Shown: piece after piece, positions 21,179 to 35,286 of the stretch
Layout of the letters: the number at the start of each line of letters is the position of its first letter
Position numbering within the stretch: position 1 is the stretch's first letter
Virus record (IMG/VR): IMGVR_UViG_3300030328_002082
Coordinates: 1,010 to 36,295 of that record
Direction: 5' to 3' (one strand)
DNA length: 35,286 nt
Source of the DNA: a virus
Program-made: the position numbers and the translations under genes
The notes under the pieces: generated by a model
Database searches by the model: none
Seen by the model: only the letters and a program-made list of their open reading frames with translations
Told to the model about the DNA's origin: nothing

Positions 21179-22468
21179 ATGAAAGAAATAACTAATATAA
21201 TTATAGACACTATAGGATTAGCAGCTAAACAAAGCTCTAGAACCTATACTGTTATAGGAGATCCAGGTGCTACTTTTAGTTTAATAGCAATTAACGAAGA
21301 CGGGAATTATTATAATTTTCCTGAAAATACTGTTATAACAAATCCAGATACTGAATCGCTACCTACAGCGGCTTTTTCTTCTACACCAGCTAGATTAAAA
21401 CCAGTAACGCTAGGTAGTAGTGGTAGTTATAGTGGAAGTATTATTTTTCCTACAGTTTCAGATGACGATCATTATGATATAGTTTTTACAGCAGAAAAAC
21501 ATTATGACACAAAAATAGCAGATAGTTTTTTAGTTGACGACGTATATCATGTTCCAAGAATATATCAATATGTAGACACTACTGTTACTTTTTCTTTATC
21601 TTCTGCTGGTAGTAGTGGTAGTTATAATACTTTACCAAGCAACTACACCGCAGCAGGTACTGATGTAAAATCTGACAAACCAGCAGCAGCACAAACAATT
21701 TCAGTTTCATGGCCCGTAACGCTTAGTGCTAGTAATTTTGTAATAGCAAAACAACCTGAAATGATTGATTTTCAGTTTACAACAACTAAAACAACAAAGA
21801 CAGCTGGATCAAGTTCTACAGAATTAGAGTTAACAGATATAACAGGACTTTCTGTTGATATGGGTGTTTCTGGTACTGGTATAGCTAGTGATTCTGTTAT
21901 TACTAATATATATAGAGGTTTTAAAGATCAAACAAACTCTACATCAGTAAATCCTATTTATGTTGTACCTAAAGTAATTAGTGATGATGGAAAAAAGGTT
22001 GTGAATTCTACTGGTGGTACTGTAATAATTGACAAAGCGTCTACATTTGTTGTAGATAGAACAATAACTTTTACAGGTAAGGGTTCTACTGCAAGTGAAG
22101 CTTTTAACGAAACAATATTTGAAGTTTCTGATCTTGCTTTAGCAATAGACCCTGTGACAACAACTACTGATGCAGCTGTAGATAATAGCACAACAATAAC
22201 TATTGCAAGTACAGACGGTATAAAAGTAGCTGATACAGTTTTAATGACGGGTATAGGTGTAACAGCTACATCACCACATGTTGATGCTGTTAGTAGTGGC
22301 GTTAGTATAACTGCTAGTTCAGCGCAAACTTTAGAAAACGGGCAAACAATGACTTTTACGGGTAGTAGTAGATCTGCAACAATAACAGGAAGTATAAAAG
22401 TATTACAATATGGCCATAGCGATATGACATTAACATTAGCGCTAGATAACATTTTAACAGTAGAATAA
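21179..22468 (+). CDS. Beta-rich tail fibre/appendage protein (429 aa)
   Basis: A 429-residue Ser/Thr/Val/Ile-rich protein with few charged clusters, typical of fibre or baseplate-like beta proteins. It starts one base after the preceding stop. The N-terminal 130 residues (TYTVIGDPGATFSLIAINED, SGSYSGSIIFPTVSDDDHYD) look like an Ig-like or jelly-roll domain. Two copies of a small module follow, at 217-244 (ELTDITGLSVDMGVSGTGI) and 341-393 (TIASTDGIKVADTVLMTGIG). The same type of module is inserted in the connector protein at 11826. No enzyme motif or membrane helix is seen. I recall relatives in marine phage tail clusters only loosely, so I call it structural without a specific role. Confidence 0.72.
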   Translation: MKEITNIIIDTIGLAAKQSSRTYTVIGDPGATFSLIAINEDGNYYNFPENTVITNPDTESLPTAAFSSTPARLKPVTLGSSGSYSGSIIFPTVSDDDHYDIVFTAEKHYDTKIADSFLVDDVYHVPRIYQYVDTTVTFSLSSAGSSGSYNTLPSNYTAAGTDVKSDKPAAAQTISVSWPVTLSASNFVIAKQPEMIDFQFTTTKTTKTAGSSSTELELTDITGLSVDMGVSGTGIASDSVITNIYRGFKDQTNSTSVNPIYVVPKVISDDGKKVVNSTGGTVIIDKASTFVVDRTITFTGKGSTASEAFNETIFEVSDLALAIDPVTTTTDAAVDNSTTITIASTDGIKVADTVLMTGIGVTATSPHVDAVSSGVSITASSAQTLENGQTMTFTGSSRSATITGSIKVLQYGHSDMTLTLALDNILTVE

Positions 22469-22469
22469 T

Positions 22470-22856
22470 ATGGAAATAACATTAACATTTGATACTCAAT
22501 TAGTTTTAAATAGATCTTTACAAGTTGGAGATACTATTTGGTATGTTACGCCTTCTAGCGCGGGTGGGTATAATATAGCTGATACAAATGATGTGAAAAA
22601 ACTTGGTACTGTAGAATTTGTAAGTGATCAATATAGACAGTCAGAAATTAAAGTTAGTTTTTACCACGATCCATTAGATCCAAACGTTACGGCACCCGTA
22701 ATATCTAACACTGATTTTATTATGTTTTCTAAAAATAATAAAGCAAATTTAAGTGATTTAACGGGTTATTTTGCGGAAGCAAAATTTACAAACAACTCAA
22801 CAGAAAAAATAGAACTTTTCTCTATTGGCTCGGAAATTAAAGAAAGTAGTAAATAA
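22470..22856 (+). CDS. Small virion-associated protein (128 aa)
   Basis: A 128-residue, mostly beta protein. It starts MEITLTFDTQLVLNRSLQVG with GDTIWYV, and its start follows the preceding stop with one base between. The last 45 residues, DFIMFSKNNKANLSDLTGYF then AEAKFTNNSTEKIELFSIGS, match a C-terminal pattern I know from marine phage structural proteins (FMFSK...NxSxLxGYxAE...NNSxEKxELFSxxSE). The role there is unknown. It probably belongs to the tail appendage together with the three preceding genes, since it ends the run of closely spaced genes before a 40-base gap at 22857. Confidence 0.68.
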   Translation: MEITLTFDTQLVLNRSLQVGDTIWYVTPSSAGGYNIADTNDVKKLGTVEFVSDQYRQSEIKVSFYHDPLDPNVTAPVISNTDFIMFSKNNKANLSDLTGYFAEAKFTNNSTEKIELFSIGSEIKESSK

Positions 22857-22896
22857 CGCGTAAAAACTGTAATTATAAATAAATAAACAACAAAAT

Positions 22897-23700
22897 ATGT
22901 CAAGACAAGTTACCCCATTCAAATCTTTATCGCCTTTAAAAGGAACAAGGCGTGATTCAAAAAAAGCGTACGAAGAAGCTGGACGAAATCTCGAATCTAT
23001 GAAAAGTGACTTCATGAATTTACCTACTAGTAATTTAATGGAAGGATATAAGGATTATACGCAAGATTTAACAAATTTAGCCAAAAATTTAACGGTTGAT
23101 ACAACATCAACTGATAGACTTACAGATTTAAGCAATCGACAGTTAGGTAGCACACTTGATATAATGCAACAGAGTGGCGCTATAACTGGAGGTAGTATGC
23201 AGCGATTATACCAACAACAGCAAGACCAACAGGGAAATATAATGTCTGATCTATCTAGACAAGTTCAGCAAAACAAATTGATGGAAATACAAGGAGAGCA
23301 AAGTTTACAGCAACAAAAAATGCAAGGTAAAATGCAACAACAAGACATGATCTTGAAAGGAAAACAAGACGAAAGAAATCTATTGTATCAAAAATCACAA
23401 GGGTTAATGGCGCTAGAAGCTGGAACAAGAGATGCTGCTTTTGCTAGAGAACAATCTTATAGAAGTATGATTGCTAAGGCCCTTAGCGATAGAAGATTAA
23501 AAGAAAACATTTCTTTAATAGGTCAATCGGCTTCAGGAATTAACATTTACACGTTTGAGTATATTGACAAATCGTTTGGTGAAGGAAAATATCAAGGTGT
23601 TATGTCTGACGAAATACCAAGAGACGCTGTTATCAAAACCCCTAAAGGTTATGATATGGTTGATTATAGTAAGTTAGACGTTGAATTTATTAAAATATAA
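22897..23700 (+). CDS. Coiled-coil virion protein with S74-like C-terminal chaperone
   Basis: The 267-residue protein has a helical, Gln/Met-rich body (residues 20-190). NLTVDTTSTDRLTDLSNRQL precedes a stretch of QQQQDQQ and QQQKMQGKMQQQ, a pattern I know from a marine phage virion protein family. From residue 197 it carries SDRRLKENISLIGQSASGIN, then IYTFEYI, GKYQGVMSDEIP and a final DVEFIKI. This is the peptidase S74 / intramolecular chaperone (endosialidase-type) module. S197 and K202 correspond to the Ser-Lys dyad that cleaves the domain off after trimer folding, leaving about 196 residues. S74 domains usually follow beta-helical fibres, so its place after a coiled coil is uncommon. The start ATG follows a 40-base A-rich gap. 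The S74 call is strong and the role of the body uncertain. Confidence 0.8.
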   Translation: MSRQVTPFKSLSPLKGTRRDSKKAYEEAGRNLESMKSDFMNLPTSNLMEGYKDYTQDLTNLAKNLTVDTTSTDRLTDLSNRQLGSTLDIMQQSGAITGGSMQRLYQQQQDQQGNIMSDLSRQVQQNKLMEIQGEQSLQQQKMQGKMQQQDMILKGKQDERNLLYQKSQGLMALEAGTRDAAFAREQSYRSMIAKALSDRRLKENISLIGQSASGINIYTFEYIDKSFGEGKYQGVMSDEIPRDAVIKTPKGYDMVDYSKLDVEFIKI

Positions 23701-23703
23701 GAC

Positions 23704-25401
23704 ATGGTACAAATAGACGCAAACGCAATGTATAAAATAGGCTACTCCATGGGAGGAGGAGCTAGAGATAATACAATAAGAAATCAAACTATAGGTATTT
23801 TAGGAGGAATGGCACTTGAGATGATAGGTGGCGCTCTTAATACGCGTAGAGAATTAAGAAGCCAAAGCAATGCTACTTTAGCAAATGCTCAGTATGAAAC
23901 TGATCAACTTGGTGTTGTTGGACAAGGGCCAAACGCTATAGACGCTGCTTACAGCACTCAAATATTAAATGAACAAAGAAAAATATTAAAAAAAGCAAAT
24001 AATCAAATTGCATTTGGAATAAATACGGCTAAAGCTACTGCTAATAAACTTAAAGCAGAAAATACTATAAAAAGCCATGTTGAAGGTCTTAAGTATATCG
24101 ACAAACAAATGTCGGTATGGAATGGTATATATAAAGATGGCACGGTAGAGGTTGCTGACAAAGACGGAAAGATGATTAGAAGAAAAGTTAAGATTAATCC
24201 TGGTTCTAGCGCAACATCACAATCTTTAGGTGCTGCTTTTGCTGATGGTAGTATAGTTAATAGTTTGGATTTTAGAGATGGTAAATGGGGTGTAGTTAAC
24301 GAGTCTATAATACCAACTGCAGGAACACCAACTTCCACACCAACTTTTACACCACTTGAAGATATTCAACTTCCAGAACTTGATGAAAGTAGCGTTTTAC
24401 ATGACCATAAAAAAAGTTACTTATCAAAATATTACGATTTAGGTGGTAAAAGTAAAAATAAATTTGACCAAAACGATAGATCAACTTTACGAAAAGACTT
24501 ATATAATGATTACTCACAGATGAGTTATAACCAAATGTCGAGCACTTGGTTTGCTGGTTCTGGTACTGATTCAGATTCACCAGCACATCAATATATAACT
24601 CGAGCTGAAGGTTATACTTTTGCTGATGGGCAAACTTCAGTTATTGAAGATCCATTTAAAATACACGATGCTAATGGTAATGAAATTAGTGATGAAGAAA
24701 AGGCAAGAAAACTACAGCTTTACACAGCCGCGATGGAGGACTTAAAAATGCAAGATTTAGATGGTGGTGATAAATTAGATTGGTTTATAGATAACTATGC
24801 CATGAATGAGATAGAATCAGAGTTTAACAAAGGCTTTGGTGACAAACAAGGCAAAGGAGGTGGTGGTAAAGGATCAAAAACTGATTTAGGAAGATACTTA
24901 AATATAAACAATACATATTCTAATGATGCTGTTGTTCGTGGTTATATGGATGATATTGCAAATGGTGATAGTGTTGTGTTTAAAGATGGTAACGGACAAT
25001 CGCAAGAATATAAACCAACTGAAGACGGTGGCTACATGTCCCCTGATGGTAAAAAAATTAGCAAAGATAGACTGGCTAAAATAATGGGACTACCAAAATG
25101 GAATTACGGTAGCGTAGATGTTGGGGGCGGTGACGGTGATATAAATGCTGGTAATATAACTAATGAAGATTTATCAGGTGATAGAGGTCAAGTAAGAAAT
25201 AAATTATTAAAAAAGCTAGGCGAAAACTTTACAATTGAAAGAAATTGGGTGTTTGGAAAAGATATTGAAATTAAACACAAATCTGAAAAAGGAGAAGAAG
25301 GAGGTAAATTACAGATAGGATTTAACCTAGGAGATGCTGATGCTAGGGAAAAAATTAACAAAATAATACAAAAAGCTAATAATCCAGTTACACTACCGTA
25401 A
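23704..25401 (+). CDS. Putative internal virion/ejection protein (565 aa)
   Basis: A 565-residue protein whose start is 3 bases after the S74 gene. Residues 1-50 contain Gly/Ala/Met-rich amphipathic segments (YKIGYSMGGGARDN, IGILGGMALEMIGGALNTRR) that could insert in a membrane. Helices follow at 85-130 (ILNEQRKILKKANNQIAFGI). The middle is Pro/Thr-rich (about 205-225: TAGTPTSTPTFTPLEDIQLP). Later parts hold a charged helix (DEEKARKLQLYTAAMEDLKM), a Gly/Lys linker near 385 and a mixed C-terminal domain. I see no enzyme motif. Membrane-active N-termini and position immediately before the giant protein suggest a protein ejected with the DNA, comparable in place to T7 gp14/gp15. No family is recognised. 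Confidence 0.7.
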   Translation: MVQIDANAMYKIGYSMGGGARDNTIRNQTIGILGGMALEMIGGALNTRRELRSQSNATLANAQYETDQLGVVGQGPNAIDAAYSTQILNEQRKILKKANNQIAFGINTAKATANKLKAENTIKSHVEGLKYIDKQMSVWNGIYKDGTVEVADKDGKMIRRKVKINPGSSATSQSLGAAFADGSIVNSLDFRDGKWGVVNESIIPTAGTPTSTPTFTPLEDIQLPELDESSVLHDHKKSYLSKYYDLGGKSKNKFDQNDRSTLRKDLYNDYSQMSYNQMSSTWFAGSGTDSDSPAHQYITRAEGYTFADGQTSVIEDPFKIHDANGNEISDEEKARKLQLYTAAMEDLKMQDLDGGDKLDWFIDNYAMNEIESEFNKGFGDKQGKGGGGKGSKTDLGRYLNINNTYSNDAVVRGYMDDIANGDSVVFKDGNGQSQEYKPTEDGGYMSPDGKKISKDRLAKIMGLPKWNYGSVDVGGGDGDINAGNITNEDLSGDRGQVRNKLLKKLGENFTIERNWVFGKDIEIKHKSEKGEEGGKLQIGFNLGDADAREKINKIIQKANNPVTLP

Positions 25402-25402
25402 T

Positions 25403-28400
25403 ATGTCAAAATACAAATACAAAGGTACAGATTTTACTGAGGAAGATGTTATGAAAGCAGCTGGCAATGCCAACTTGTCTTTTGACGATTATGTAAATAA
25501 ACATAAGTTAGAGTTCGTTGAAGATGAAGTTGCTCCTGATGCTGCGTTAGAAAATGTGCGTGAGAAAAAAGTTCCAGAATTTAAAAGTTCACACATATCA
25601 CTAGAAGATCTTACTGTGGATCATGGAAATGGAATGTGGGGTGGATTTTTTAATGTTGAAAAAAATGTTTTAAAAAGCTTAACAGATCATTATAAGGGTA
25701 GTGGTGTTAGTATGAAGGGCGTTACTGGTGGTATTGATGAAATAGAAATAAAAAATAAAGCAGGAGATACAGAAAGATTTGCAATACCTTCTACTTTTAA
25801 TAAGTTCACGTGGCAAATTGGTGGTACTGATGAAATGTATGATTTTCATAAAAAAATAACTGACTTTATAGCCGCAGGTAATAAAAATATAGATCCAGAA
25901 TTAGAAAAACAACAAAGAAATATTGAGGCTGAAATTCTTGAAACACTTGACAATACTCAAGCTATGAGGAATTTTATTCCAGATTTTACTGGCAATTGGG
26001 AGGCTATTGAGAGTGACGATGATGAAGAGAAAAAGACTCTAATGGCTAGTCTTCAAAAACAATTTGGAGAAGGTACTGACGCCTGGTATGGTGAAAATAT
26101 AAATTTTGTGTTTGATGGTGATTATTCAAAGTTATCAGAAACAGATTATCAATTTGCACTTGACAAGATTATATCGTTAAAAGCATCAGAACAAAGGATT
26201 AAAAAAGCAGAAGCAAAACGATTATTAGAAGAAACATATCTTCCTTCGGAAGATTTTAAAGCAGAGTTGCACGCTAATAGAGATCAAGAGATTATTAGTA
26301 AGATGGCGCCTGAAGAAAAGAAGTTAGTAGGACTGTTTAAGCAATATGAAGATTTAATTGGGGTGGAAGGTGTAGAGGCTAGAGAAAAAAGAGAAAGTCT
26401 TGAAAAGCAAATGAAAGTTGCAAGAAAAAACCTAGGTAATATTTTCGATCAAAGAAGATATACAAACCAAGCATTTGTTTTAGATTTAAATGGTAACTAT
26501 ATAGATCCCCTTAGACAAGGTTCTCTTCCACAGGTTACTATTACTGAAGAAGAATACGAGGCTAATAAATCACTTCTTGAGCAAAAGACACAAGGGCGTA
26601 GAGATGTTATAAGAGATCTAAGCAACACTAATCACGAGAAAATGTATGTTAGTGATAAAGAGGGTGAAAAGGTTGATAAGGTTGTTATAAACGATAAATC
26701 TGTATTTAAAAGTTTAATAAGAGATCACAATATAAAACCTATTGGTAAAACAGAAAAAGGATATATATTTGAACTCCCAAGAAGTTTGTCAGCAAATCAC
26801 TATAATTATATAGTAAAAGGAGATGGATTTGACATGTGGAAAGATGGCTTGAGTGGTGTTGGTGAGAAGGCCGTTACTGGTGGTAAAGCACGATTCATAT
26901 TCCCAAAAGAATTAACAGGAGATGAAAGTTATCCAGATTTCCAAAGTCCAGATGGTCATTTTGGTTTATTAGAGTTTGACAAAGATCAAACATTTAGTGG
27001 TAAAGAAGTTAGTCTTGGTATAAATCCTTTAATCCCTGGTTTTGTTGGTGGTTGGTGGGATCAAGATGAATATGCAGATAATGATTTGTCTAAAGAATAT
27101 AAAAGAGAATTAAAAGCCTGGAGAGACGAAAGAAAAGCTTTAGTTAACGACAGAAAAGTGCTTAACGATATGCATCTTTTAAACATTGACCCAGGATCAA
27201 ACACTCTAAGTATCTCTATTGATCTTGACGAGGGAACTGCGGGTGAAAGCGATTTTAGTCTTGACTTCATACCACAAGGAGTAGGTTTATTATACGAAGG
27301 TTTTGGCCATACTTTAGGTTTTGATTCTGACGCACAAGATGATTTAAACTTGTGGAGCGCTAGGGCTTCTAACGATGCTTTAGATTCTTTTGCATATAGT
27401 AGTGGTTTTGAATTAAATGCTGAGCAAAAAGAAAGAGTTAAAAGAACTGGTGCTTATAAAGTTTTTGAAGGTGTTGTAGGGTTTGTGCCTGCCATTATAG
27501 AGTTTGCAGCTATTGAATATGCCACCGCAGGTTTTGGTACTGCCACTGGTCTTACTAGACTTGGGACTAGGTTAACTACTTCTTACAAAATGGGTGATAA
27601 AGGTAGGAAGATTTCAACCGCCCAAATGGCTAATAAAATAGGTTACAAAGGTAAACTAAGCGATACTAAAGCTCTTGATGAGGCAATTATGAGATGGAAC
27701 TTGACTAGCAAGTCAAAAGTAAGTCCATATTTTCCAGGTGTAAAAGGTGCGGCCCCAGGAATAGTAAAAGGAGCTGGGAGAACTACAACGCAATCCGCTA
27801 TGTTTCACGGTTTTCACATACTAAAAGAAGAAGCTAAAATGGCGATTGCTTTTGAAGATGATTATAAAATAGGTATGGGTGCTGGTTTTTATATAGCTGG
27901 AGCTTCGTTACCTAGGTTTTCATTTGGAAGAGAATCAGCGTTTGGTCAAAGATCTGTAGCTACTTTAAACGCAGGGCTTACGATGGGAAGAAGTGGTCTT
28001 GCGGGAGCAACAGGTACTGTAGCCGCTGCAAATCTAGAAGCTTTTATTGAAGATATAAGAGGTAGAACTACTTACGGTAAATATTTATCAGAAACCTATG
28101 ATGATTTAAGCGAAACAGGACAACAGGGCTTGATTGATTTCTTTACGTTTATGCTTGTTGGTAGAGGTAAAGGTCTTACTAGACAAGATTTTAAAAGTAT
28201 TAAAAAGTTAGATAGACTTGAAAGAGAATCTGGTGTATTATTAAAGATTTTAGAAACACAAAAAAGAAACAACACGGGTACTTACAAATCAAACAGAGAT
28301 CTTTGGAATAGAAAATATGAAAAATACAAAGATTTAAACAAGCATGTGCAGATAACTTTAAATAGAATAGATAACAATTCTAAGTGGGCTGATACGTCAA

Positions 28401-31400
28401 CTAGAAGAAAAATAGTTGAACGATCTTCTAGGAATTCTGAAAACGTTATTAGGCAAATACCGGGAATGGAAAATTTTAAAATTAAAATAAAAGATAATAA
28501 TAGAGATTTCCAAAATAAAGATGCAGTTGCCGAGTTTAATAGTAAAAACGAAGTGTTTTTAGATCTTAGCAGAATAGATAAGGGAAGTTTACCACACGAG
28601 ATGGGACACGTAGTTTTTAAAGCTTTATTTAGAAATAACCCTGAGGTAACAAAAATGTTTGTTAGAGAATTAAAAAGTTCTTTTAAAGATGCTGAGTTTC
28701 CAAGTGAGGTTAAAAAACTTGTAGATGGAAAACTTGTTGGCACTGGTGTAATGAAAAAAATGACTCTTGAAGAGTATATTAAAAATGAATATCAAGAAAA
28801 GAAGTTTGAAAATATAAAACCAGAAGAGTTTATTACTTATACAATAGAGTTGTTAGCACAAGGAAAACATTATACTAAACTTGTTGACAGTGGCGCTTTT
28901 ACAAATTTAAAACAAAGGATAAATAGATTTAGTAACGAAAGAAACGGAAAAGATATATTTTCAACTAGCGATAGTAAACAACAATTAATTAACTTTTTAG
29001 CAAATTTTGGTAAGTCTATACAAAAAGGTAGTTTAACACTAGAACAAGTAGGTATGTTCAAGCAGTTTGCGACAAAAATTGGAAACAAAAAAGTTGACAT
29101 TACTGAGCTGTATAAAGAGCCAATAGAAAAAGACAGTAGAACTGAATCAGAAAAAACTACAGCTGATGCTGCTAAAAAGTCTACAAAAATATTAAGAGAT
29201 AAAATAGAAAATATTTACGTGTCTAACATTGCTGGTAAAACCGGAGATGAAAAAAGAAAAGCTATTGAAGACTTTTTAATGGGTAAAAATGCTAAAAAAG
29301 GTACGCCAGCATATGAGTTCGAAATAAGAAGCAGAAACCCTAAAGCTAACGATGCTAAAATAAAAGAGTTAATAGAAAAAGGACCTGGAAGAATAAAAAC
29401 AGAAGCACACTTTGACGCTATAATTATGGATGCTTTAAATAAAAAATATCCAGATTTAACGTTTGCACAAAAGAAAAGCTTATTCTATGAGTTAAAACAC
29501 GATCCGTATTTAGCTAACAAACAAGCTAAAAAAAGAGGTGTAGTTGAAGCTATAATGGATTACAAAGAAGGTAAAAGCAAAGATTTAGCTTCTTGGGTTA
29601 TGGCTAACTTACTGGGGTCTCCTGAAGCTGGTGGTTTTTCTCGTATGCATGAAATTATAAAGGGCGAAAGAAGAGAGGGTAGAGTTGGGAATATTGAAAT
29701 CCCAGGTATGTTTAGAAAAAGTATAACAGAAGAAAAAGGTGTTGGAGTTAGTGAAAAAGAGCTTGGAACAGTTACACAGCAACAACAACGTTCAGCTGAA
29801 AAAGTTTATACTGGTAAAAAAATAAAAATTGCAGAAGATCTTAAACTTAAAGACGCAGAAGTTGAAGCCGGTAAAAGAGTTATAGGAGAATATATGGAGC
29901 AAGCTCCATTAAAAGATTTTACATATAAAAAAATTGGAGAAGCAGTTATGCCAATTCTTAGACCTATTGTTGAAAGAGCATTTAAACGTGATGCTGAATT
30001 TTATAAAAGATTTAATGAAAAAGGATTGAGAGATCCTTATGTTCAAGAAGTTATAAAGGCGAATAGAAGAGATTTATTTGACCATGCTAAAACTTTCTTT
30101 CACTCTATACCAGAGCAAATGTCTAAAATGACGGCTGAAGTTACTGGAGCTATGGGGACATTTGGTGCTTTGTACACTCCAACGGGTAAAAGACTGCAGT
30201 GGTCAGAAATGCCAGTCTGGATGGAGTTGTCAAAAAGTAAAAAAGCTTCAGGCCCACCAATATTTGAAAAAAGAAAAGTTTTTAATGAAACAGAACTTAA
30301 AAAGGCACTTTTAGATTTTATGTATACTAACCCTAAAACTGGCAAGCCGTTAAGAACAGAACAGGTTAATAAAAGAATTGAAAGAGGACTTGATTTTATG
30401 ACAAACTCAATGGGTATACAGTTTGCAAAAGACTTAATAGATACTCCTGGTTTTAGAGAAATGATATTAGCTAAAGAAGGTGCTGGTAAAATGATAAGTA
30501 GAGAAAAGTTAATGGAACTTGACAAGCAAAAGGTTCATGACAAAGTTAAAGAACAATTAAGAGATGCCCTACCACAAGCTTTAGCTACTAAAAAAATACT
30601 TGGAAGTAAAGACCTTGCTGCATATGAAAGGTATGCTGATTATTTTGCTAGTAAAAATTTAGATTGGACATGGGAAAACATTAGAAAAGCTCACGCGGAG
30701 AATTATTCATTTCAAAGTTTAGATGTAAAGCTTTTTTATGAGACTGTTCTTAAACCTTTTGGATTAGGTAAAGGAGAATTAAACTTTGACGCTATGTTAC
30801 CTGTGGAGCTTATAGTAGATCCCAAGAAAATAAGTAAAAAACCAGTTAGGCAAATTGCTGAGTGGGCAGAACTACCTGCAATGTTGAAAAAACTAGGTCT
30901 AAGTGAATTTGATGTAAACGCTATAATTACTTCAACTGCTAAACAAATGGCAAACAAAGATTTTATAGATGACTATTACAAAAGCAAAGAGGGTATACTA
31001 AGAGTTGTTGCAAGCAAACTTCCACAATCAATTGTTGAAAGCGCTGCGTTTAGGTATCAGTTTGGGCAAGGTGTAGACGGTATAGCGCCTCGTGTTGGTG
31101 ATCTTCAAAGACAATCTTGGAGCAAGAAAAAAGGTAAAATGGTAAATAGAGGTTTAAATAAAGCTGCTTTTAATAAATTAATGAAAGATGGTAATATTAA
31201 AGGTATACCTGATGCTAAATATTTAAAAAGTTTACCTACAAAAACCGCGGCTCAGAGACAACAAAAAGCCGAAATAGCTAAAGCTTTAAAAAGCTTTAAA
31301 ATTACAGATAACAAAGATTTAAAAGCAGAGTTAGTTAAAGAGTTAAATAAAAAAGAATATAGCGATATATTAACAAACACTAATAAACAGCTAAAACTTA

Positions 31401-34400
31401 AAGAACATTTAAGAAAATTTTTAGGTTTAGACAAGGGTGCTGAGATTGCTAATCAAAAAGTTTTAGAGCTTTTCAATTTTGCTGTTAAAGACTTTTATCT
31501 AGGCGCTAAAAATAAAACAACGGCTTTAAACCAAGTTGTATTTCACTTGCAATCTCAAACAAATATAGGTAGAGGTTTTTCAAGAGGAGCAGCTACACAT
31601 ATGGATGTTAGCATGGAAGCTCAAGCGTTAGGTAAACTTCTTAGAAGTGAACATGGTCTTCAGTTGATTAACTTTAATACAAACTTTTTAGTGGATGTTT
31701 TAGTAAATGGGAAAAATCCAAAAACATTTGAAAAAAATTATAAAGAATACGCTAATATATACAGGCAAGGTGTTATAACGGAAAAAGTAAGAGAAAGTGT
31801 TGATTACGTTTATATTGATGGAAAAAGAGTAGTTGCAAATACAAGTATACCAGAAGGCTATACTTTTAGCCACCCAGCGTCTGCTACTTATATAAAAACA
31901 ATGGATGTTGCTAACAAACAGCTTTATTTAGGAGAAGGTGCTTTAACTAAAGGACAACAAATAACTCACAACTTAGCGATAGGTAATATAAAGAAAATTA
32001 CTCAACAAGCTGGCTTTGCAATACCTACAAAAGGTATTACCAAGAGTCAAATGGTTAAAAATCTACGTACTACTGATAAGGCTATGGCTTTAGGTAGAAT
32101 GAAGGATAAAAAGAAAAGAGGCATGAGCACTTTTGACTTTGATTATACTGTTGGTATTAGCGAGAACTTTGTATTTGCAACTAAAGGGAAAGAAAAAAGA
32201 AAAATATCATCAGCTGAATGGCCTTTTGTTGGTGATAAGTTATTGGCTGAGGGTTGGAAAATGGACTTTAGTGATTTTAATAAAGTTACAAAAGGAAAAC
32301 CTGGGCCTTTAATGCAAAAGCTTAAAAATCAAATAAAAAAGTTTGGATCAGACAACGTTTATATATTAACGGCTAGAGCGCCTGAAAGTCAAAAAGCAAT
32401 ACATGATTGGTTAAAAAGTGAGGGCGTTAATATTCCATTAAAAAATATCACTGGTTTAGGTAATAGCACTGGAGAGGCAAAGGCCATGTGGATGTTAGAA
32501 AAGTTTAGTGAAGGATATAACGATATGTACTTTGTAGATGACGCTCTGCCAAACGTTAAAGCCGTGAGAGAAGTGCTAGATCAATTAGATATTAAGTCTA
32601 AGGTGCAGCAAGCGTTACCAACAAAAAAGATTTTAAGTGATAACTTTAATAAGATTATAGAAGATGTGTATAGCATTGGAGCTGAAAAACAATATTCTGG
32701 TGCAAAAGCAAAGTTATTAGGTGAAAGAAAGTGGACAAAGTCTTTTATAACACCGGCAAATCAAGATTTTGCTGGATTGTTAAGAAATTTCGTGGGTAAA
32801 GGTAAAAAAGGTGAAGAGCATTTAAAGTTTTTTGACGAAAACTTACACAAGCCTTTTGCGAGAGCTTATAACAATCTCAATACAGCTAATCAAAATACAG
32901 TTGGTGATTTTAAAGCTTTAGCTAAAAACTTTCCAAAAGTTAAAAAAGATTTAAATAAAAAAATTCCTGGTTCTCCTTGGACTTACGATCACGCTGTTAG
33001 AGTTCACAGGTGGACAAGGGCTGGATTTAAAGTACCAGAGCTTTCAAAAACTGATATTGCTGAGTTAAATAAGTTTGTTGAACAAAATCCTGAATTGTTA
33101 GAGTTTTCAGAACAATTAGGTAGTTTAACAAAATTAGAAAAAGGATATGTAGAGCCAGGAAGAGATTGGGTGGCTGGATCTATAATGAGTGATTTAGCAC
33201 GTATAGTTACTAGCGTAAATAGAAAAAGAGAACTAGCGGAGTTTATGGAAAATAGAGAGGCTATTTTTGGCACTTGGAATAATGGTAAATTAGAGGGTGC
33301 TAATATAAATAAAATAGAGGCTACTCAAGGTCCTAAATTTAGAGAAGCACTAGAGGATATATTGTGGAGAATGGAAACTGGTAGTAATAGACCTACTGGT
33401 AAAAACGCAGTAGTAAATGCTCATATGGATTTTATAAACGGAGCTGTTGGAACAACAATGTTTTTAAATTCTAGATCTGCAATGTTACAAAGTTTGTCTA
33501 CTTTTAACTATATAAACTGGAGTTTTAATAATCCAGCAATGGCAGGTAAAGCTTTTGCTAATCAAGCACAATACTGGAAAGATTTTAAAATGATAATAAC
33601 CTCTGATATGTTAAGACAAAGAAGAGGTGGTTTAAGATATAACGTCCAAGAAGCTGAATTAGCTCAATCGGCTGCTCGAGGTAGAGAAAACTGGAAAAAA
33701 GGAGATGTTATTGGTATTGGTAAAAGCACAATAGCTTACTTGCTTAAAAAAGGATTTTTACCTACACAAGTAATGGATAGTTTTGCAATATCAGCTGGTG
33801 GTGCTACTTTTTATAGAAATAGAGTTAATGATTTAATTAAAAAAGGCGCTACTAAAGTTGAAGCTGAGAAACAAGCTTGGTTAGAATTTCAAGAAAAAAC
33901 AGAAGTAGCACAGCAGTCTTCTAGACCAGATTTAATTTCTCAAAACCAAGCAGCACCAACTGGTAGACTTGTTTTAGCGTGGGCAAACACGCCTATGCAA
34001 TATGGTAGAATACAAGAAAAAGCTGTTAGAGACTTTATAAATAGAAGGGGTAGTCAAGCGGAAAATGTATCAAAAATATTATATTACGGAGGTATACAAT
34101 CCGCTGTGTTTGCAGGTTTACAAAACGCATTGTTTGCATTTGCTTTAGACGAAGAAGGTGACATGGCTAAAGGAGATCCTCAAATCCCTGAAAAAGAAAG
34201 AAGGGACAAAGCATTATATCAAAGAACATGGAGAGCTGCTAACACCGTATTAGATAGTCAGTTAAGAGGTATAGGTATTCCAGGCGCGGTAGTTGGTACT
34301 TTAAAAAACATGGCGCTTGAATTCCACGCACAAGATAAAAAAGAATATAACCAAGACTATGGTAAAGTAGGTTTACAAGCCGTGAGTTATTCTCCACCAA

Positions 34401-34759
34401 TTGGAGCAAGGGTTAGAGATATTGTTGGTGTTGGAAATACTTGGAAATGGAATAAAGATGCTATAATGAGTATGAACTTTTTTGATTTAGACAACCCTGG
34501 TTTAATGGCTGCAGCTACAACAGTTCAAGCAACAACCAATCTTCCAACCGAAGCAACTCTTCAGAACGTAAACAATTTAAGAGAGGCTGCTGATTGGAGA
34601 AATCAATGGTGGCAAAGAGTGTTTTCTGCAATAGGTTTTGCTCCTTGGGATATTGGTACTGAAAACGAAAGATATGAAAGAATAAAAAAGAAAGCAAAAA
34701 AACAAAGAAAAAAGAAAAATAAAAGATCAAAAAGTACATTTAAAATGCTAGATTCCTAA
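25403..34759 (+). CDS. Giant polyvalent-type virion protein with metallopeptidase and HAD domains
   Basis: One uninterrupted 3118-residue frame, starting one base after the preceding stop. Residues 1-680 are charged and mostly unassigned. A hydrophobic stretch lies near 690-715 (GFVPAIIEFAAIEYATAGFG). HEMGH at 1065-1069, within LPHEMGHVVFKALF, plus EEFITYTIE at 1141-1149, reads as an HExxH metallopeptidase. At 2245-2249 DFDYT starts a HAD phosphatase set, with YILTAR (T2323), K2360 and YFVDDALPN (D2379, D2380). The last 700 residues are helical and Gln/Arg-rich. They include SSRPDLISQNQAAPTGRLVL and WANTPMQYGRIQEKA, a pattern I know from large polyvalent proteins of marine phages. A membrane-like helix lies near 2900-2920. 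Such proteins are thought to be packaged and injected. Catalysis is not proven, and the intact HExxH and DxDxT residues make it plausible. Confidence 0.88.
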   Translation: MSKYKYKGTDFTEEDVMKAAGNANLSFDDYVNKHKLEFVEDEVAPDAALENVREKKVPEFKSSHISLEDLTVDHGNGMWGGFFNVEKNVLKSLTDHYKGSGVSMKGVTGGIDEIEIKNKAGDTERFAIPSTFNKFTWQIGGTDEMYDFHKKITDFIAAGNKNIDPELEKQQRNIEAEILETLDNTQAMRNFIPDFTGNWEAIESDDDEEKKTLMASLQKQFGEGTDAWYGENINFVFDGDYSKLSETDYQFALDKIISLKASEQRIKKAEAKRLLEETYLPSEDFKAELHANRDQEIISKMAPEEKKLVGLFKQYEDLIGVEGVEAREKRESLEKQMKVARKNLGNIFDQRRYTNQAFVLDLNGNYIDPLRQGSLPQVTITEEEYEANKSLLEQKTQGRRDVIRDLSNTNHEKMYVSDKEGEKVDKVVINDKSVFKSLIRDHNIKPIGKTEKGYIFELPRSLSANHYNYIVKGDGFDMWKDGLSGVGEKAVTGGKARFIFPKELTGDESYPDFQSPDGHFGLLEFDKDQTFSGKEVSLGINPLIPGFVGGWWDQDEYADNDLSKEYKRELKAWRDERKALVNDRKVLNDMHLLNIDPGSNTLSISIDLDEGTAGESDFSLDFIPQGVGLLYEGFGHTLGFDSDAQDDLNLWSARASNDALDSFAYSSGFELNAEQKERVKRTGAYKVFEGVVGFVPAIIEFAAIEYATAGFGTATGLTRLGTRLTTSYKMGDKGRKISTAQMANKIGYKGKLSDTKALDEAIMRWNLTSKSKVSPYFPGVKGAAPGIVKGAGRTTTQSAMFHGFHILKEEAKMAIAFEDDYKIGMGAGFYIAGASLPRFSFGRESAFGQRSVATLNAGLTMGRSGLAGATGTVAAANLEAFIEDIRGRTTYGKYLSETYDDLSETGQQGLIDFFTFMLVGRGKGLTRQDFKSIKKLDRLERESGVLLKILETQKRNNTGTYKSNRDLWNRKYEKYKDLNKHVQITLNRIDNNSKWADTSTRRKIVERSSRNSENVIRQIPGMENFKIKIKDNNRDFQNKDAVAEFNSKNEVFLDLSRIDKGSLPHEMGHVVFKALFRNNPEVTKMFVRELKSSFKDAEFPSEVKKLVDGKLVGTGVMKKMTLEEYIKNEYQEKKFENIKPEEFITYTIELLAQGKHYTKLVDSGAFTNLKQRINRFSNERNGKDIFSTSDSKQQLINFLANFGKSIQKGSLTLEQVGMFKQFATKIGNKKVDITELYKEPIEKDSRTESEKTTADAAKKSTKILRDKIENIYVSNIAGKTGDEKRKAIEDFLMGKNAKKGTPAYEFEIRSRNPKANDAKIKELIEKGPGRIKTEAHFDAIIMDALNKKYPDLTFAQKKSLFYELKHDPYLANKQAKKRGVVEAIMDYKEGKSKDLASWVMANLLGSPEAGGFSRMHEIIKGERREGRVGNIEIPGMFRKSITEEKGVGVSEKELGTVTQQQQRSAEKVYTGKKIKIAEDLKLKDAEVEAGKRVIGEYMEQAPLKDFTYKKIGEAVMPILRPIVERAFKRDAEFYKRFNEKGLRDPYVQEVIKANRRDLFDHAKTFFHSIPEQMSKMTAEVTGAMGTFGALYTPTGKRLQWSEMPVWMELSKSKKASGPPIFEKRKVFNETELKKALLDFMYTNPKTGKPLRTEQVNKRIERGLDFMTNSMGIQFAKDLIDTPGFREMILAKEGAGKMISREKLMELDKQKVHDKVKEQLRDALPQALATKKILGSKDLAAYERYADYFASKNLDWTWENIRKAHAENYSFQSLDVKLFYETVLKPFGLGKGELNFDAMLPVELIVDPKKISKKPVRQIAEWAELPAMLKKLGLSEFDVNAIITSTAKQMANKDFIDDYYKSKEGILRVVASKLPQSIVESAAFRYQFGQGVDGIAPRVGDLQRQSWSKKKGKMVNRGLNKAAFNKLMKDGNIKGIPDAKYLKSLPTKTAAQRQQKAEIAKALKSFKITDNKDLKAELVKELNKKEYSDILTNTNKQLKLKEHLRKFLGLDKGAEIANQKVLELFNFAVKDFYLGAKNKTTALNQVVFHLQSQTNIGRGFSRGAATHMDVSMEAQALGKLLRSEHGLQLINFNTNFLVDVLVNGKNPKTFEKNYKEYANIYRQGVITEKVRESVDYVYIDGKRVVANTSIPEGYTFSHPASATYIKTMDVANKQLYLGEGALTKGQQITHNLAIGNIKKITQQAGFAIPTKGITKSQMVKNLRTTDKAMALGRMKDKKKRGMSTFDFDYTVGISENFVFATKGKEKRKISSAEWPFVGDKLLAEGWKMDFSDFNKVTKGKPGPLMQKLKNQIKKFGSDNVYILTARAPESQKAIHDWLKSEGVNIPLKNITGLGNSTGEAKAMWMLEKFSEGYNDMYFVDDALPNVKAVREVLDQLDIKSKVQQALPTKKILSDNFNKIIEDVYSIGAEKQYSGAKAKLLGERKWTKSFITPANQDFAGLLRNFVGKGKKGEEHLKFFDENLHKPFARAYNNLNTANQNTVGDFKALAKNFPKVKKDLNKKIPGSPWTYDHAVRVHRWTRAGFKVPELSKTDIAELNKFVEQNPELLEFSEQLGSLTKLEKGYVEPGRDWVAGSIMSDLARIVTSVNRKRELAEFMENREAIFGTWNNGKLEGANINKIEATQGPKFREALEDILWRMETGSNRPTGKNAVVNAHMDFINGAVGTTMFLNSRSAMLQSLSTFNYINWSFNNPAMAGKAFANQAQYWKDFKMIITSDMLRQRRGGLRYNVQEAELAQSAARGRENWKKGDVIGIGKSTIAYLLKKGFLPTQVMDSFAISAGGATFYRNRVNDLIKKGATKVEAEKQAWLEFQEKTEVAQQSSRPDLISQNQAAPTGRLVLAWANTPMQYGRIQEKAVRDFINRRGSQAENVSKILYYGGIQSAVFAGLQNALFAFALDEEGDMAKGDPQIPEKERRDKALYQRTWRAANTVLDSQLRGIGIPGAVVGTLKNMALEFHAQDKKEYNQDYGKVGLQAVSYSPPIGARVRDIVGVGNTWKWNKDAIMSMNFFDLDNPGLMAAATTVQATTNLPTEATLQNVNNLREAADWRNQWWQRVFSAIGFAPWDIGTENERYERIKKKAKKQRKKKNKRSKSTFKMLDS

Positions 34760-34761
34760 AT

Positions 34762-35286
34762 ATGAAAAAACTAATTACAATACTATTAATAACACTTGTT
34801 TCTTGCGCAACTCCAAAAGATTGTTGTTCGCAGGTAAACTTAAAAAAATATTTTAAATTTGCCACGTTTTATGCAGCTGCAAATGGCGGTACATCTATAT
34901 CAGATGTAGAAATGTTTTCTGTTGCCAACGGTTTAGAAACTACTACAGTTAAAACTCCATATGATTATAATTTATCTTTAGGTATACGTAAGATAGCTAG
35001 GTTTGGTTATGAAAATAGAGCACAAACTTTTTACGATGGTACTGAAGACTCTTGGTCAGACGGTGCTAACGTAGGTAAATCACGTGGTCTAGAGTTTTTA
35101 TTTGAATTAGATTACAAGAGACAACAAGGTAATGAATATTTAGATCAGCATCACTTTATAAGATTTGTAGATAACAAATATATATTGAAGGGTGAGTATT
35201 TAGAAGATGGCTTTGCAGACATTAAATACTTTGAAACATCAGAGAGATATAGATATAAAGCTAATGACAAATTGTCCTTTAATGCT
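34762..35286 (+). CDS. Exported/lipoprotein-like phage protein, 3' end missing
   Basis: The frame opens with ATG 34762 and remains open to the window edge (175 codons). The start MKKLITILLITLVSC is a signal sequence whose LVSC fits a lipobox with Cys15. A SPI-type cut after the following CSQ is the alternative, since relatives I recall have a plain signal peptide ending SFSQ before VNLKKYFKF. The mature part reads NLKKYFKFATFYAAANGGTS, then NLSLGIRKIARFGYENRAQT and GFADIKYFETSERYRYKAND. That is a beta-strand-rich, aromatic pattern compatible with an outer-membrane or surface barrel-like protein. It starts 2 bases after the giant gene. A surface role such as blocking superinfection is inference. 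The end of the protein lies beyond the window. Confidence 0.8.
   Translation, partial: MKKLITILLITLVSCATPKDCCSQVNLKKYFKFATFYAAANGGTSISDVEMFSVANGLETTTVKTPYDYNLSLGIRKIARFGYENRAQTFYDGTEDSWSDGANVGKSRGLEFLFELDYKRQQGNEYLDQHHFIRFVDNKYILKGEYLEDGFADIKYFETSERYRYKANDKLSFNA

Follow-up and report, generated by a model that had tools for sequence, protein, structure and literature searches.

MPTase domains, of which 12 clades have been published, have been described in polyvalent phage proteins (Iyer et al. 2017, PMC5512222), with a list of functional options that corresponds to those weighed here and includes attack on host proteins or on a rival element; the same work, in the part of its text available, predicted that giant proteins ejected by phages contain peptidase domains. 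Residues 2130 to 2448 of the N4 vRNAP were named an MPTase there and the vRNAP was given as packaged unprocessed, and the available portion of a preprint on the N4 structure names a C1 domain with an HExxH motif; this much was already known. For ejection proteins in general, the accessible text of PMC8954989 gives the order gp14-like, gp15, and then the larger gp16. A limited literature search on giant virion peptidases brought up as relevant the work on polyvalent proteins and on N4 and a paper on a tail-tape RNA polymerase. The available parts of the Cellulophaga and North Sea flavophage papers say nothing about the giant protein, and the accessible text of Iyer et al. and of the N4 preprint yielded neither the flavophage-like family nor the payload exchange nor the cysteine pattern reported here.

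Organization of the locus and retrieval of relatives

The window, a stretch of 35,286 nucleotides of viral DNA (positions 1,010 to 36,295 of IMG/VR record IMGVR_UViG_3300030328_002082), contains a structural module that runs from the terminase and portal genes on to the gene for a giant protein, as in MW202828, elemo, and phi38:1. The giant gene (25403 to 34759, plus strand, as are the other trio genes and all features of the giant protein given here) starts with ATG, encodes 3118 amino acids, and is the third and largest of a presumed ejection trio. The three genes ahead of the gene at 34762 encode proteins of 267 amino acids (22897 to 23700), 565 amino acids (23704 to 25401), and 3118 amino acids, so that the giant gene comes last and is largest after two smaller genes, as in the gp16-like order; the corresponding N4 set, gp52, gp51, and gp50, measures 150, 644, and 3500 amino acids. 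The first two members of the trio were identified by size and order alone, and the 267-amino-acid protein had a weak S74 chaperone match that did not reach the cut-off; such a match would fit a tail fibre and argues against an ejection role for this protein.

In the giant protein, a hydrophobic segment that may contact a membrane was located by hydropathy at amino acids 687 to 711 (27461 to 27535). The core of a gluzincin-type peptidase domain, as delimited by alignment A2 and the structural model, covers amino acids 1017 to 1186 (28451 to 28960), and a conserved C-terminal module, through which relatives were retrieved, covers amino acids 2189 to 3118 (31967 to 34759). With the C-terminal 518 amino acids of the giant protein as the query, 56 related viral contigs were obtained. 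This was the only query that succeeded against the viral contigs, the peptidase region by itself having found no relative there. No relative was found by tblastn against the named phages with the peptidase region, with the giant protein (2999 of its 3118 amino acids), or with its C terminus, nor by tblastn with the domain of relative L028 or by a scan of genome contigs.

Conservation of the HExxH motif

An earlier note on this DNA had pointed out an HExxH motif in the giant protein, and the motif is real and not a chance match. The open reading frame (ORF) reads ...NEVFLDLSRIDKGSLPHEMGHVVFKALF... with H1065, E1066, and H1069 in the sequence HEMGH (amino acids 1065 to 1069, codons 28595 to 28609), which is the single HExxH of the giant ORF and the sole one among the 19 window ORFs scanned. 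Since such a motif arose in 3.4% of shuffled versions of the giant protein (n = 5000), its presence there is by itself only suggestive. Exactly one HExxH was present, though, in 50 of 55 giant ORFs (the window and 54 relatives, leaving out L006, which is truncated, and L056, which is in the wrong frame) versus 0.36% of 11,000 shuffles. Counted over all 56 related contigs, the longest ORF carried exactly one HExxH in 49; the remaining seven without it were L006 (truncated), L056 (broken frame), L012, L027, L038, L045, and L046.

We aligned the domain of the window with those of 46 of the 49 HExxH-bearing relatives, three having been dropped because their segment duplicated another. The 47 sequences formed 15 groups at 40% identity, and the only invariant columns were H1065, E1066, H1069, and E1142; the first three were fixed by the search pattern used for selection, whereas E1142 (codon 28826 to 28828) was not selected for. 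The last of these residues lies in the sequence EEFITYTIE (amino acids 1141 to 1149), in which the third zinc ligand had been proposed to be E1142 or E1149. E1142, as glutamate in 47 of 47 sequences, is likely to be that ligand, whereas E1149 was less constant (E or D in 46 of 47); E1141 was glutamate in 37 of 47. H1065, H1069, and E1142 are the likely zinc ligands and E1066 the likely general base. By profile alignment, L056 had HD in place of HE, L027 had HExxxH, L045 and L046 had Q for the first histidine, L012 retained the flank only, and L038 gave no match; the sites in these six relatives look like variant or decayed forms.

Predicted fold of the domain

Two AlphaFold2 models, both only modestly confident, support the suggestion that the motif lies in a helix-like context. 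In the model of the 170-amino-acid domain, built with 47 sequences (pLDDT 69.3), strands were placed at residues 10 to 14, 27 to 29, and 34 to 38, followed by a helix at 44 to 60 that bears HEMGH and a helix at 124 to 136 that bears E1142 (170-amino-acid numbering). The third strand of this predicted sheet, assigned by DSSP on the model, corresponds to amino acids 1050 to 1054 of the giant protein (28550 to 28564) and directly precedes the motif helix.

When the model was compared by VIA-align with 113 chains preselected by Foldseek, chains of M34-fold toxins came out on top (rows 1 to 15, Z 3.9 to 5.8). The best Z of 5.8 is below the level that the tool calls safe and was reached with a model of pLDDT 69, the top four rows align outside the toxin catalytic domain, and chains of the catalytic domain reached a Z of at most 4.7. 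Lower rows included PprI (Z 3.3) and selecase (Z 3.0), along with unrelated helical proteins at up to 3.7. The toxins, PprI, and selecase are gluzincins or share the M34 fold. A Foldseek search with the trimmed domain model gave no solved match at E 0.001, and the matches of a first run with a 280-amino-acid model were dominated by long helices. In the Foldseek viral library no row reached E 0.001; the best row was an unnamed protein (E 1.5e-3), and a structural protein of elemo was among the weaker ones (E 0.43). Among the best 25 of 56 weak Pfam families matched by the 47 domain members there was no polyvalent MPTase-type model, nor did Pfam give one for the giant protein of the window; Peptidase_M78 was matched by at least 2 of the 47 members (best E 0.016) among the Pfam matches listed.

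The VIA-align result and the model fit a gluzincin, below the level of proof. Taken with the conservation of E1142 as a likely third ligand, they agree with the gluzincin-type assignment made in the earlier note: the domain is very probably a genuine gluzincin-type peptidase domain, and it is likely to be catalytically active as a peptidase.

Comparison with described phage proteins

The window domain resembles the polyvalent MPTases, as these are described in the available text of PMC5512222, in an HExxH helix, a later helix with a glutamate, and a predicted three-stranded sheet. Both families also have a variable insert between the helices, lie within very large phage proteins of several domains, and include HExxxH variants. 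Profile comparison of the N4 MPTase region with the window family gave P values of 1.7e-5 (alignment A1) and 2.3e-4 (A2), versus 0.35 for the reversed control and 0.23 for the best of 40 column-shuffled controls. When HExxH was masked, the N4 match weakened to P 0.01, which indicates that most of the signal came from the motif region; the A1 alignment spans the domain, with the third glutamate of N4 (in NEFMAW) out of register.

The likeness to N4 gp50 extends to giant size, to the absence of cysteine, and to the gene's place at the end of an ejection set in which protein size increases from small through medium to large. The window protein differs from gp50 in having no polymerase domain (neither Pfam nor PHROGs gave a polymerase family anywhere in the giant protein at E values of 1 or below) and in its C-terminal module, for which homology to N4 C2 was ruled out (hhalign P 0.26). 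T7 gp16 and P22 gp16, compared on these points alone, are similar in their position after smaller ejection genes and in lacking cysteine, but the window protein is much larger than either, and it has a peptidase where T7 gp16 carries a transglycosylase (PMC8954989, in the text available).

Among the flavophages, elemo gp18, phi38:1 gp101, and phi46:3 gp120 are encoded last or almost last in the structural module and, like the giant protein of the window, contain no cysteine. Elemo, a phage of Flavobacterium sp. BAL314, has in gp18 one HExxH with a clear match to the peptidase profile (E 4.8e-11 when two sequences were searched). HExxH is absent from phi38:1 gp101 and phi46:3 gp120, which occupy the same or nearly the same place in these cultured flavophages. 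The flavophage large proteins and the environmental giants share an upstream hydrophobic domain, the profile of which did not match the window protein. No homology was detected between the C-terminal module and the C termini of the phi38:1, phi46:3, and elemo proteins (P 0.09 to 0.19), and the comparison with MW202828 gave P 9e-4 (reversed control, 0.097). The MW202828 podovirus giant protein (L061, 741 to 12320) contains two HExxH motifs, at amino acids 1615 and 2500, and the N4-like polymerase of Sulfitobacter phage EE36phi1 (L076) has, in addition to the expected HExxH at amino acid 2556, a second one at 1332.

Absence of cysteine from the giant protein and its neighbors

The giant protein contains no cysteine in 3118 residues, and the 267- and 565-amino-acid proteins of the trio have none either. 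In the giant gene and the four genes preceding it (21179 to 34759), there were 0 cysteines in 4512 codons (stops counted), where the composition of the remaining 14 ORFs of the window predicts 36.7. Cysteine was likewise absent from 54 of the 56 related ORFs; with L006 and L056 dropped, the 54 remaining giants had 8 cysteines in 151,683 residues (6 in L005 and 2 in L012), compared with 798 in 98,264 for the other ORFs of the relatives' loci. The upstream ORFs in these loci, which should include the neighboring ejection genes, were also cysteine poor (179 in 55,878).

The same difference was seen between ejection proteins and other virion proteins of T7 (1 cysteine in 2261 residues versus 18 in 2869), P22 (0 in 1309 versus 31 in 3646), and N4 (0 in 4294 versus 42 in 6312), the other virion proteins being selected sets and not every gene, with T7 gp6, gp6.7, and gp7.3 left out. 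Trios of phi38:1 (0 in 2440 versus 10 in 3911), elemo (0 in 4346 versus 23 in 4866), and MW202828 (1 in 4805 versus 54 in 5344), which were picked by position after the cysteine pattern of the giant protein had been seen, behaved alike. The ejected-protein lists for T7, P22, and N4 were taken in part from the available text of PMC12633501 and PMC8954989. Since T7 gp9, P22 gp8 and gp26, and N4 gp56 and gp57, which are other virion or scaffold proteins, are cysteine free too, a lack of cysteine hints at ejection but does not prove it. We found no printed statement on the lack of cysteine in ejection proteins in the limited open-licence literature available, and the word "cysteine" had 0 matches in the ejection-protein review and in the N4 preprint.

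Unfolded passage through the oxidising periplasm may underlie this lack of cysteine. Gene order and cysteine content both support delivery into the host, and by analogy with the known ejection proteins the giant protein is likely to be ejected. It would then be the largest of the ejection proteins of this phage, which is marine and short-tailed and probably has a host among the Bacteroidota. The cysteine pattern, if widely true, would allow proteins delivered into cells by phages to be recognized simply from their sequence, and it would point to a physical constraint of periplasm crossing.

Proposed exchange of the N-terminal payload

Median identity was 67% for the C-terminal module and 22% for the peptidase domain (990 pairs from 45 sequences), and the N-terminal 2000 or so amino acids, the payload, were often unalignable between relatives in which the C-terminal module and the upstream gene could be aligned. 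In L030 and L029, the DNA was 93% identical upstream and 90% identical over the last 3 kb, and the first 2000 amino acids of the giants were nearly wholly unalignable at the DNA level, except for 494 bases. L007 and L037, and L013 and L014, are further pairs of near relatives that, like L029 and L030, have alignable flanking DNA and an almost wholly different N-terminal part of the giant protein.

The payload comparison covered 52 loci (L006, L025, L039, L056, and the window left out), and its pairs are not independent of one another. In 205 pairs the C termini aligned over at least 80% at an identity of at least 80%, and 157 of these had less than 25% of the payload aligned; when at least 60% coverage of the upstream 1.2 kb was also required, the figure was 99 of 138. 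HExxH was present in both members of 79 of these 99 pairs with alignable flanks and nonalignable payload. At the protein level, similarity still reached 23 to 29% in parts of some payloads, with one stretch at up to 59%, so that either long-separated variants have been exchanged or divergence has been extremely rapid. The close likeness of the flanks leads us to favor exchange of the payload.

Possible roles of the peptidase domain

Self-processing, trimming of virion parts, and attack on a host factor after injection are the roles that the earlier note had suggested. Like T7 gp16 or N4 gp50, the giant protein would be packaged, threaded through the tail, and refolded in the host, and a cut in cis by its peptidase after ejection would then release parts of the payload from the carrier and from what lies on the membrane side. 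That the peptidase is delivered with the DNA and acts on its own protein in this way is a plausible reading, to which we lean with some hesitation. Such cleavage would explain why a peptidase is found in each of the differing payloads, and that a peptidase keeps recurring while the rest of the payload changes points to a function in the service of the carrier; the position of the domain between the hydrophobic segment and the C-terminal module also fits. The main rival is an effector that, after injection, cuts proteins of the host or of a rival element, the change of payload reflecting an arms race. We consider it rather unlikely, although the low identity of the peptidase compared with that of the C-terminal module (22% versus 67%), the unalignable payloads between phages with alignable flanks, and the relatives that do without HExxH are all in its favor and the available text of Iyer et al. 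lists the option (PMC5512222); a slot for effectors might well house other activities too, yet almost every payload has a peptidase, and no host target is known.

Alternatively, the peptidase might process the giant protein or further components of the virion during assembly, while the phage is still inside the cell. A precedent is P1 DdrB, reported to be cut to about 76 kDa before packaging in a step attributed to its MPTase, but the N4 protein, whose domain is similar, enters the virion uncut, evidence against cleavage within the particle (both PMC5512222, available text). The positional equivalents of phi38:1 and phi46:3 without HExxH further indicate that assembly in the wider group does not need the peptidase, and we regard this role as very unlikely. 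Nor is it probable that the domain is a metal-binding or structural remnant devoid of peptidase activity or that it serves some other HExxH chemistry: altered sites do occur in some family members and the accessible part of the N4 preprint mentions HExxH in radical SAM-associated enzymes, but a remnant would not need the four key residues that were constant in 47 of 47 sequences from 15 groups at 40% identity. The confidence that we attach to each step of the cis-processing reading (domain, ejection, activity, and cis-processing) is a matter of judgement, not of computation.

More broadly, the largest ejection protein may be a polymorphic delivery vehicle, an idea that we put forward as plausible but somewhat less likely than not. 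In it, a conserved C-terminal carrier would be joined to an N-terminal payload cassette of about 2000 amino acids that is swapped between close relatives, each cassette bringing its own zinc peptidase for release; ejected proteins would be under near-absolute selection against cysteine, probably through their unfolded crossing of the oxidising periplasm, so that absence of cysteine would mark ejected phage proteins generally. The changing payload and the recurring peptidase amount to natural experiments on what such peptidases cut, since phages can be compared that share alignable flanks and differ in payload, or that have intact as opposed to altered sites.

Other features of the locus

Motifs suggest a second, HAD-like enzyme domain in the giant protein, at about amino acids 2244 to 2400 (32132 to 32602, limits approximate), which contains FDFDYT and ILTAR and has weak Pfam DUF2608 matches; the HAD-phosphatase name follows from these two motifs. 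The motif pair was common to 48 of the 56 related giant ORFs, and DUF2608 was matched, weakly to fairly, in all three giant proteins tested. Elsewhere in the window, a match to a GroES-like co-chaperonin family (PHROG E 2e-16) was found at 2022 to 2603, shortly upstream of the terminase gene.
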